Shown: positions 20,459 through 22,482 of the stretch, piece after piece
Position numbering within the stretch: the stretch's first letter is position 1
How the letters are laid out: the number at the start of each line of letters is the position of its first letter
Source of the DNA: Chitinophagales bacterium
GTDB taxonomy: Bacteria; Bacteroidota; Bacteroidia; Chitinophagales; CAIODY01
Assembly: GCA_947452995.1 (NCBI GenBank)
Contig: CANGEV010000004.1
Span: 62,001 to 126,000 of the forward strand
Direction: 5' to 3'
DNA length: 64,000 nucleotides
Notes under the pieces: generated by a model
The model's input: only the letters and a program-made list of their open reading frames with translations
The model's database searches: none
What the model was told of the DNA's origin: nothing
Translations under genes and position numbers: made by a program

Positions 20459-20464
20459 TTTTTG

Positions 20465-20472
20465 TATTTTTG
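20465..20472 (+). promoter_or_regulatory. -7 element abutting plsY (TATTTTTG)
   Basis: Exact TAnnTTTG; its last base is 4 nt before the plsY ATG at 20477. With the usual distance to the transcription start this predicts a leaderless mRNA. Confidence 0.6.
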
Positions 20473-20476
20473 CATC

Positions 20477-21124
20477 ATGATTCCTAATACCACCCTATTT
20501 CAAAATATTTTCTTAGTAATAGCTTATCTTCTTGGTTCAATCCCAACTGCAGTATGGGTAAGTCGTTATTTTTTCAAAACCGATATCCGAGAACATGGTA
20601 GTGGTAACGCGGGTACTACAAATACTTTACGCGTGCTAGGTAAGACGCCTGCAATCTTCGTTTTGGCTGTCGATCTTTTGAAAGGACTTGCAGCTGTAAA
20701 GTTGGCATTGCTTTTCCCAGAAACTATGCATGGTAGTAACTACTGGATGAACCTTGGCTGCGTTTATGGAATGGCTGCTGTTTTAGGACATATTTACCCT
20801 GTTTTTGCAGGCTTTAGAGGAGGAAAAGGAATAGCGACATTATTTGGTATGATTATAGGCTTAAATATCTTCTTAGCCTTGATATTGGCACTACTTTTCT
20901 TTAGCATTGTACTTGTTAGTAAGTACGTTTCTCTAGGAAGCATTCTTTCTGCAATTGCAATGCCAGTGGCAACGTGGGTTCTTTTTCCTAGTGATGAATA
21001 TACAAAGCTCCATATTCTAAGTATTTCAATCCCTTTACTGGTTATTTATACGCATCGTGAGAACATCCAACGCTTAATTAAAGGCGTTGAAAGTAAAACA
21101 AATTTGGTAGGCGGTAAAAAATAA
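20477..21124 (+). CDS. plsY: Acyl-phosphate:glycerol-3-phosphate acyltransferase
   Basis: Inner-membrane acyltransferase that makes lysophosphatidic acid from acyl-phosphate. 215 residues. ATG 20477 is chosen over an upstream TTG because the -7 element lies between them. Conserved cytosolic loops are GSGNAGTTNTLRVLG (family GSGNxGxTN motif) and GHIYPVFAGFRGGKGIAT (GH.FP.F..F.GGKG). Five or six membrane spans are seen (IFLVIAYLLGS, AIFVLAVDLLKG, GCVYGMAAVLG, IFLALILALLFF, LHILSISIPLLVIY). Two hairpin elements of unknown role follow at 21233 and 21378. Confidence 0.95.
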   Translation: MIPNTTLFQNIFLVIAYLLGSIPTAVWVSRYFFKTDIREHGSGNAGTTNTLRVLGKTPAIFVLAVDLLKGLAAVKLALLFPETMHGSNYWMNLGCVYGMAAVLGHIYPVFAGFRGGKGIATLFGMIIGLNIFLALILALLFFSIVLVSKYVSLGSILSAIAMPVATWVLFPSDEYTKLHILSISIPLLVIYTHRENIQRLIKGVESKTNLVGGKK

Positions 21125-21270
21125 GCCTTCTACGTAATTCCTCTATCTTTTTCAGTAATAAAACCGATGTTTTTGACATCGAATTGAATGCATCTTTACA
21201 ACAGAGGTTAATCAAAAACATACCCTGTTTTGAAGTCCGCTGGTTCGTGGTTGTCCAGCGGACTTTTTTT
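21125..21270 (+). ncRNA. Candidate small RNA / structured 3' region A
   Basis: No coding frame is visible. The region holds a small hairpin CGATGT-TTTTG-ACATCG (21165-21181), the 9-mer AGAGGTTAA (about 21203-21211), and a strong 9-bp stem GTCCGCTGG/CCAGCGGAC (21235-21243 with 21255-21263) closing an 11-nt loop TTCGTGGTTGT, then seven T. The same 9-mer and the same loop recur in element B 143 nt downstream. A weak -7-like TATCTTTT is at 21144-21151. It may be an independent small RNA or part of the plsY 3' untranslated region. Confidence 0.45.
21233..21270 (+). terminator. Hairpin terminator A with loop TTCGTGGTTGT
   Basis: Nine GC-rich pairs plus two A-T pairs into a run of seven T (21264-21270): a good intrinsic terminator on the + strand. 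Confidence 0.8.
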
Positions 21271-21284
21271 ATGCACAGTTTCGT

Positions 21285-21413
21285 GATACTATCTCATCTA
21301 TTGTAACTACTTATCGATAATTACGTATCTAATAAAGGAACAAATCAAATGTGAGACGTTCCAGTAGAGGTTAACTTATCCGCCGATTCGTGGTTGTATC
21401 GGCGGATTTTTTT
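21285..21413 (+). ncRNA. Candidate small RNA / structured region B (related to A)
   Basis: No coding frame. A possible stem GGAAC/GTTCC brackets AAATCAAATGTGAGAC; then AGAGGTTAA (about 21365-21373) and a 10-bp stem (21378-21387 with 21398-21407) around TCGTGGTTGT, followed by seven T. The outer stem core TCCGC/GCGGA is shared with A while the inner pairs differ and remain paired (TGG/CCA in A, CGAT/ATCG in B). This is compensated change, as expected for a conserved RNA structure. No clear promoter was found. Confidence 0.45.
21378..21413 (+). terminator. Hairpin terminator B with loop TTCGTGGTTGT
   Basis: Ten-pair stem (ATCCGCCGAT with ATCGGCGGAT) followed by a T run to 21413. The 11-nt loop core is identical to terminator A. 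Confidence 0.8.
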
Positions 21414-21417
21414 ACAA

Positions 21418-21449
21418 AAAAAAGGCTGAAGTATACTTCAGCCTTTTTT
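21418..21449. terminator. Perfect palindromic terminator at the nuoH 3' end
   Basis: Core GGCTGAAGTATACTTCAGCC flanked by A and T runs; 32-bp perfect inverted repeat, 19 nt from the nuoH stop. It can serve nuoH on the - strand and anything read from the + strand. Confidence 0.88.
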
Positions 21450-21468
21450 AACAGTATAAATCAAATGA

Positions 21469-22482
21469 TTAAAATAACCATAAACGAATAGCTCCTGTCA
21501 ATAATAAGTTCACAATTGCTAAAGGTATTAGCATTTTCCAACCGAGATTCATTAATTGGTCATAGCGGAAGCGTGGCAATGTCCAACGAACCCACATAAA
21601 CAAGAAGATGAAACCCGCAATCTTAGCAAATAAGAAGGCCGTACCAATGATAGTTTCAACATTATGTGATAAGCCAAGACGACCGATAAATGGCATATTG
21701 TAGCCCCCAAAGTAAAGCGTGCTCATTAAGGCTGAAGAGATGAACATGTTTACATATTCAGCAAACAAATAAAAGCCTAGTTTCATACTACCATATTCGG
21801 TATGATACCCTCCAATCAATTCCGTTTCACATTCTGGCAAATCAAAAGGAGCACGATTAGTTTCAGCGAACGCACAAATTAGAAAAATCAAGAAACCTAA
21901 TGGTTGATAAACGATATTCCAATGCCAACCCGTTTGTTGTGCTGCAATTTCTGATAAGCTTAAAGAACCTGTTCCAACAACCAACGCGATTATTGCAAGT
22001 CCCATAGCCAACTCATAAGAGATAATTTGAGATGCTGCGCGAATAGCACCCATTAAAGAATACTTGTTATTAGAAGCCCAACCTCCGATCATTATACCAT
22101 ATGCTCCTAATGAAACCACGGCAAACATATAGAGCAAGCCAACGTTCACATCGGCAACCGCCATGCTAATCTCTTTACCACCAATGATCAAACCTTTACC
22201 CCAAGGAAGCATCGCTCCGCCCATACAAGCCAAAAGCATAGCGAGTGACGGACCCAGAATAAATAAGAACTTATTGGCTTTGCCAGGAATGAATTCTTCT
22301 TTAAATAACAATTTCACACCATCCGCAATAGGTTGTAAAATACCACCAGGACCTGCACGATTCGGGCCAATACGATCTTGAAGCCACGCAGCGAGCTTTC
22401 TTTCCAATAATGTCAAATATGTGGCAAGACCTAATGAAACGCCTAATACGCTTCCAGCAATGATGAGTTTTTCAGTTGACAT
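21469..22482 (-). CDS. nuoH: NADH-quinone oxidoreductase subunit H
   Basis: Membrane-arm subunit of respiratory complex I lining the quinone chamber; 337 residues, eight or so spans. Diagnostic motifs: LLERKLAAWLQDRIGPNRAGPGGILQPIADGVKLLFKE, SYELAMGLA, AETNRAPFDLPECETELIGGYHTEY and FAEYVNMF. It stands alone: divergent from aroB on one side and ended by its own terminator on the other, whereas nuo genes normally form one long operon. The other nuo genes must be elsewhere. Its promoter (22505-22512) is 28 bp from the aroB promoter. Confidence 0.96.
   Translation of the reverse strand: MSTEKLIIAGSVLGVSLGLATYLTLLERKLAAWLQDRIGPNRAGPGGILQPIADGVKLLFKEEFIPGKANKFLFILGPSLAMLLACMGGAMLPWGKGLIIGGKEISMAVADVNVGLLYMFAVVSLGAYGIMIGGWASNNKYSLMGAIRAASQIISYELAMGLAIIALVVGTGSLSLSEIAAQQTGWHWNIVYQPLGFLIFLICAFAETNRAPFDLPECETELIGGYHTEYGSMKLGFYLFAEYVNMFISSALMSTLYFGGYNMPFIGRLGLSHNVETIIGTAFLFAKIAGFIFLFMWVRWTLPRFRYDQLMNLGWKMLIPLAIVNLLLTGAIRLWLF

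Follow-up and report, generated by a model that had tools for sequence, protein, structure and literature searches.

The plsY–nuoH intergenic region

The window, a stretch of 64,000 nucleotides from a Chitinophagales bacterium, carries two related elements between plsY, which ends at 21124, and a nuoH-like gene on the minus strand, which ends at 21469 (Table 1). As had been described in an earlier note on this DNA, the gap is noncoding (the ORF list holds no ORF of at least 60 aa between the two genes) and contains two terminator-like hairpins 143 bp apart. These lie at 21233-21265 and 21378-21407 and are 75% identical over 36 nt. The 9-mer AGAGGTTAA, which the note had placed ahead of both hairpins, was located at 21203-21211 and 21366-21374, and the matched changes that it had seen in the inner stems were confirmed. 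The loop sequence also occurs twice, the second time at 21387-21397. When the gap was shuffled with its dinucleotides roughly kept, two 8-bp hairpins with a common loop 7-mer appeared in none of the 2,000 shuffles.

Read as an RNA, copy 1 opens with AGAGGUUAA, which is single-stranded, continues with a weak A/U hairpin (hairpin 1), and closes with an intrinsic terminator whose loop is UUCGUGGUUGU. The stem of copy 2 (21378-21387/21398-21407) is perfect, and its loop occupies 21388-21397. The claim of a shared 11-nt loop held for the sequence, which is present in both copies, but not for the structure of copy 2, where the initial T of the "loop" belongs to the stem (GAT/ATC), leaving 10 nt unpaired. 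Copy 2 is without the ca. 20-nt hairpin 1 and without a recognisable -7 box; because the internal hairpin of copy 1 is missing from it, the 9-mers lie 163 bp apart and not 143. A covariance model, R1, built from nine copies of the family described below and with copy 2 outside the training set, scored copy 2 at 33 bits (E = 0.002 per genome). The two copies in the window differ in standing: copy 1 is a full family member, its -7 box being atypical yet conserved, while copy 2 is probably a duplicate that has been shortened or is decaying, and may not be a second active sRNA.

The inverted repeat downstream of copy 2 is a probable bidirectional terminator of nuoH. It is perfect over 16 bp, with A and T runs flanking both sides, and likely terminates the nuo operon.

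Table 1 Features of the plsY–nuoH region, in window coordinates
Feature	Position	Strand	Basis
plsY (glycerol-3-phosphate acyltransferase), upstream neighbour	20462..21124	+	ORF; Pfam G3P_acyltransf, E 1.3e-56
Divergent CAGTAATAAAACCGATG at the upstream-dyad position of the other copies	21153..21169	+	Upstream alignment of all copies, by eye
CATCTTTA, -7 box of copy 1, an atypical variant of TAnnTTTG (Bacteroidota)	21191..21198	+	Position matches TAnnTTTG/A of 12/15 copies
sRNA copy 1, ca. 68 nt, predicted +1 at A21203	21203..21270	+	Family comparison
GAGGTTA, single-stranded 5′ stretch; GAGG[TC]TA in 15/15 copies	21204..21210	+	Alignment
Hairpin 1 of copy 1, AAAACA/UGUUUU, weak	21215..21231	+	Fold; arms by eye
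Intrinsic terminator of copy 1: 11-bp stem AAGTCCGCTGG/CCAGCGGACTT and T tract	21233..21270	+	Fold; covariation over 15 copies
Terminator loop of copy 1, TTCGTGGTTGT; GTGGTTG in 15/15 copies	21244..21254	+	Alignment
ATTACGTAT 5′ of copy 2, displaced by ca. 3 nt from where the regulated copies have the dyad	21320..21328	+	Inspection
sRNA-like copy 2, T tract reaching 21413	21366..21413	+	Repeat search; fold; R1 match
Perfect inverted repeat AAAAAAGGCTGAAGTA/TACTTCAGCCTTTTTT	21418..21449	-	Repeat search
nuoH-like gene, convergent neighbour	21469..22482	-	ORF; name from the earlier note

Members of the family and their genomic contexts

A DNA search with 21190-21275 revealed further copies on contigs C29 and C10 of the same genome (G000), in G001 and G002, which are the two other genomes of its genus g1, and in one of the three genomes of the sister genus g2. 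With R1, all six genomes examined from the bacterial family were positive: G000 carries five copies at four loci, G002 four, G001 one strong copy, and each of the three g2 genomes one. Two copies 4 kb apart were present in a related GTDB MAG (CANFRC, 'Bacteroidetes bacterium Jr-16oct17-164'), which brings the family to 15 copies in seven genomes. The tandem pair pointed out in the earlier note is real but only part of the set, with three more loci in the same genome. The single copies outside the genus, as well as the atypical -7 box of copy 1, were counted against the interpretation that we favour below.

In ca. 390 other genomes of the order, R1 gave no match better than E = 2.7e-5, and those inspected were plain terminators; this search scored 12 candidates per genome, and weak members could be missed. 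The matches outside family f1 with E > 1e-5, obtained with R1 in the order and with R2 in the phylum, were mostly generic terminators without the loop and were rejected. A gapped pattern applied to GTDB contigs returned 14 stretches, of which six were true members (two in CANFRC, the others already known); the remaining stretches were without the hairpin and chance-like. The exact loop 11-mer was discarded as a family marker: because its counts outside the family were near chance among relatives, it is uninformative alone. Members scoring far above background were confined, among the genomes searched, to one Chitinophagales family.

The earlier note knew of no named RNA family with this loop; Rfam 15 showed nothing above the gathering threshold over the element, and the sub-threshold matches were to unrelated families. 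Besides, phage, plasmid and viral collections gave no match to the element, and no sRNA for this group was found in the literature searched. The family of ca. 68-nt sRNAs is undescribed.

Judged by their flanking genes, the copies occupy seven unrelated loci, with neighbours that vary in side and strand. In addition to plsY/nuoH (locus A), these are a site ca. 50 nt upstream of an epimerase ORF in both genomes that have it (locus B), the interval that separates a methylmalonyl-CoA mutase fusion gene from an acyltransferase (locus C), a site adjoining a protein with a secretion tail (locus D), a site in CANFRC (locus E), a site adjoining an uncharacterised 612-aa protein, where the G001 copy also lies (locus F), and a site in the sister genus (locus G). 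Loci A, B, D, F and G have conserved orthologous copies. At locus B of G000, inspection showed an extra TACATTTG between the terminator and the gene. Since the loci are unrelated, a cis role tied to one gene is excluded. For the same reason, and since most copies have their own promoter box, two readings offered in the earlier note, sequestering hairpins and a shared transcript reading through from plsY, were abandoned.

Conservation, promoter and upstream dyad

GAGG[U/C]UA and the loop core GUGGUUG were invariant in the alignment of all 15 copies, and a common core, G[A/U]GGUU, was seen in both exposed stretches of nearly all of them (GAGGCU in two copies at locus F). A terminator stem and T tract were present in every copy. 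The stem was 98.7% paired over the 15 copies; changes on both sides occurred at 6 of its 11 pairs, as compared with a shuffle mean of 4.0, and the number of doubly changed cells was 25 as compared with 9.3 in shuffles. Because any terminator must pair, stem covariation alone is no proof of a functional RNA, and the telling part is that the loop and the 5′ stretch stayed constant while the stem drifted. The arms of hairpin 1 read AAAAC/GUUUU in g1, those of g2 being AAAAG(U)/(A)CUUUU, and this hairpin is poor at locus E and in the locus F copies of G000 and G002. Folding z-scores ranged from -3.1 to -4.4. ATG was absent from 11 of the 15 copies, and no small ORF was conserved.

At locus F, two copies (L104:5910-5982 and L108:5270-5344) are divergent, with another promoter type and another 5′ domain (GAGGCUAACCGCC), and keep the GUGGUUG loop; the G001 copy syntenic with them is of the ordinary type.

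The -7 box of Bacteroidota is TAnnTTTG, placed at -12 to -5 (PMC9723704). In 12 of the 15 copies, TAnnTTTG/A stands 4-6 nt before GAGG, whereas, of all 474 GAGG sites in the same loci, only 13 are preceded by a box in this way, and the copies account for most of these. From the placement of the box at -12 to -5, the predicted transcription start coincides with GAGGUUA or differs from it by a few nt; the RNA would then carry the conserved stretch at its very 5′ end and, for copy 1, be ca. 68 nt long. The atypical CATCTTTA box of copy 1 is also kept in G002.

By eye, most g1 copies show the dyad ACG-N8-CG(T/G) at a fixed distance of 21 nt upstream of the -7 box. It is a candidate site for a DNA-binding regulator, and its position would suit an activator. 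In the four genomes searched, exact ATACGN4ANTACGTATG occurred only at sRNA copies, and total counts of the dyad were no higher than in the reversed control; consequently, no wider regulon was seen. The locus F copies of G000 and G002 are without the dyad and have the canonical box TATCTTTG in place. Near the start of what reads as a uvrA gene, two genomes conserve a site with one mismatch to the dyad.

The promoter and RNA of copy 1 (21190-21270) are identical to those of G002 at 81 of 81 positions, and the identical block starts at 21190. By comparison, plsY is 75.4% identical between the two genomes (48.9% at third codon positions) and the upstream gap 72%. The comparison at locus A covers copy 1, after which the G002 contig stops. 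On these sequences, copy 1 is under strong purifying selection. Similarity among the paralogues is limited to the interval from about -60 to the terminator, indicating that a whole gene was copied together with its regulatory site. The invariant loop core and 5′ stretch, the covarying stems, the -7 boxes and the selection on copy 1 all argue for the proposal of the earlier note that the elements are paralogous small RNAs with a functional loop. As a separate observation, the plsY homologue of G025 (L046) shows one internal TAA, which may be an artefact of an extended frame.

Proposed function and comparable RNAs

The elements constitute, in all likelihood, a real sRNA gene family, and its members are very probably regulators. 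By analogy with FopS, we consider it probable that the family consists of trans-acting paralogous sRNAs in which the loop and the 5′ end serve as pairing or protein-binding sites; that they act by trans pairing and not by another RNA function is a reading towards which we lean slightly. Each autonomous unit has a sigma-A-type -7 box, preceded in most g1 copies by the dyad, and is predicted to encode an RNA of ca. 65-75 nt. This RNA would start at or just before GAGGUUA, form the weak A/U hairpin, and stop at its own terminator, which would also supply stability. Both the 5′ (A)GAGGUUAA and the GUGGUUG core of the loop are exposed and were kept during the drift of the stem; they therefore appear to be the working parts. 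Their most likely role would be pairing to short complementary sites in several mRNAs, as described for the 5′ seed of FopS, and the G[A/U]GGUU core may alternatively or additionally be bound by an RNA-binding protein. The unit has been copied to new places within one genus.

FopS of B. thetaiotaomicron has 14 paralogues of ca. 65-70 nt with sigma-A-type promoters, each with a single-stranded 5′ seed and a terminator; pairing at the start region, it represses the translation of SusC transporters, with RbpB as its antagonist (PMC11697453). The family has 12-15 copies per genome and was, according to the authors, deposited in Rfam (PMC11697453). The family found here resembles FopS, as described, and GibS in being a multicopy set of paralogous sRNAs of ca. 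65-70 nt in Bacteroidota, with a sigma-A-type promoter, a conserved single-stranded 5′ stretch, a Rho-independent terminator, and scattered, mostly intergenic loci. The FopS layout of a 5′ seed followed by a terminator within 65-70 nt is matched in form only, as an extra, weak hairpin lies between the two here. Further differences are the 1-5 copies per genome, the invariant terminator loop and the upstream dyad. An Rfam search to E 5 yielded no relevant match, which would bear on FopS only if its model is part of the Rfam copy searched. If the analogy with FopS holds, candidate seeds are the 5′ end and, in this family, the loop as well. LhrC-type sibling sRNAs of Listeria likewise exist in several near-identical copies, with conserved loop motifs, one of them in the terminator loop, that pair with mRNAs; these Firmicutes RNAs have C-rich UCCC motifs and are larger than the family here. 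A hairpin loop is also the proposed pairing site of Rfp18, which is widely conserved in Flavobacterium, including F. psychrophilum (PMC9723704); to judge from this description, the family resembles Rfp18 and other Flavobacterium sRNAs in this respect.

The exact complement of the 5′ end (TTAACCTCTG) was not found just upstream of gene starts; its count was only slightly above the reversed control, and no target pattern emerged. At L257, near position 1500 (G398 contig 13), one arm of a terminator-like repeat, AACCTCTGCG...CGCAGAGGTT, matches the antisense of the sRNA 5′ end; this unrelated repeat was taken as a chance resemblance.

The lack of a complementary target site in this exact search also fits the main rival, in which the two exposed G[A/U]GGUU motifs bind an RNA-binding protein and titrate it as CsrB does CsrA, the copies providing dosage. 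The presence of the same core in both exposed stretches of nearly all copies, and its reappearance in a distant genus as GAGGUUA and GUGGUU (see below), point in the same direction. However, each RNA would offer two sites only, unlike CsrB-type RNAs, and the flanks of the loop and 5′ motifs differ; we regard this explanation as unlikely.

It is far less probable that the elements are ordinary terminators of plsY and its neighbours related through duplication. Copy 1 does lie 78 nt past the plsY stop on the same strand, and the stems and T tracts are typical of intrinsic terminators, but conservation reaches the 5′ stretch and the promoter, the loop is kept despite stem change, and copies are found upstream of, between or convergent to unrelated genes. 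A self-spreading REP- or MITE-like element would account for a copy number that varies among close species (5, 4, 2, 1) and for loci that are mostly not common to species; such an origin is very doubtful, as the copy number is low, no terminal repeats or target duplications were noticed, the unit is bounded by a regulatory site and a terminator, several loci have orthologous copies, and the phage and plasmid collections were without a match. A cis-acting leader or attenuator of the downstream gene, as the position before the locus B epimerase in both genomes might suggest, is equally improbable in view of the convergent or divergent neighbours at other loci and of the further TACATTTG between terminator and gene in G000.

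To our knowledge, few sRNAs have been described in Bacteroidota outside Bacteroides and Flavobacterium. The family supplies a well-defined RNA, in which two invariant stretches are candidate contact sites, together with natural copy-number and promoter variants, so that its targets and partner protein become directly testable. The upstream DNA site may tie it to one regulator.

In a phylum search with a 15-copy model, a match in genus g168, which is probably Flavobacterium, was alone outside f1 in keeping both GAGGUUA and the GUGGUU loop. The g168 module has the order GAGGUUA, A/U hairpin, and terminator with the GUGGUU loop, and pattern searches showed it to be multicopy in many g168 genomes, often with two or three modules ca. 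1 kb apart. With a stricter pattern in 395 genomes, folded copies were seen only in G000 and g168, and the others were chance-like single sites. Since the module lies 30-70 nt after tandem DUF3244 genes and no -7 box was seen, it is probably a 3′-UTR element. It differs from the sRNA family in its stem (CAGCUC/GAGCUG) and in having two further hairpins upstream. As its hairpin 1 can be drawn in several A/T registers, no covariation is claimed for g168. A rough estimate makes it unlikely that all the common features arose by chance, and functional convergence is possible. A bolder and less likely reading is that both are forms of an old Bacteroidota module, present as stand-alone sRNAs in Chitinophagales and as a 3′-UTR element behind tandem secreted DUF3244 proteins in g168, in which a shared RNA-binding protein would read the two G[A/U]GGUU motifs. 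If related, the look-alike would link stand-alone and mRNA-derived sRNAs across two orders.

At the g168 loci L176-L185, secreted DUF3244 proteins of ca. 120-135 aa are encoded in tandem groups of three or four, some of which are followed by the GAGGUUA/GUGGUU module and by two further hairpins, AGCGTA-GCAG-TACGCT and TATACT-N7-AGTATA.
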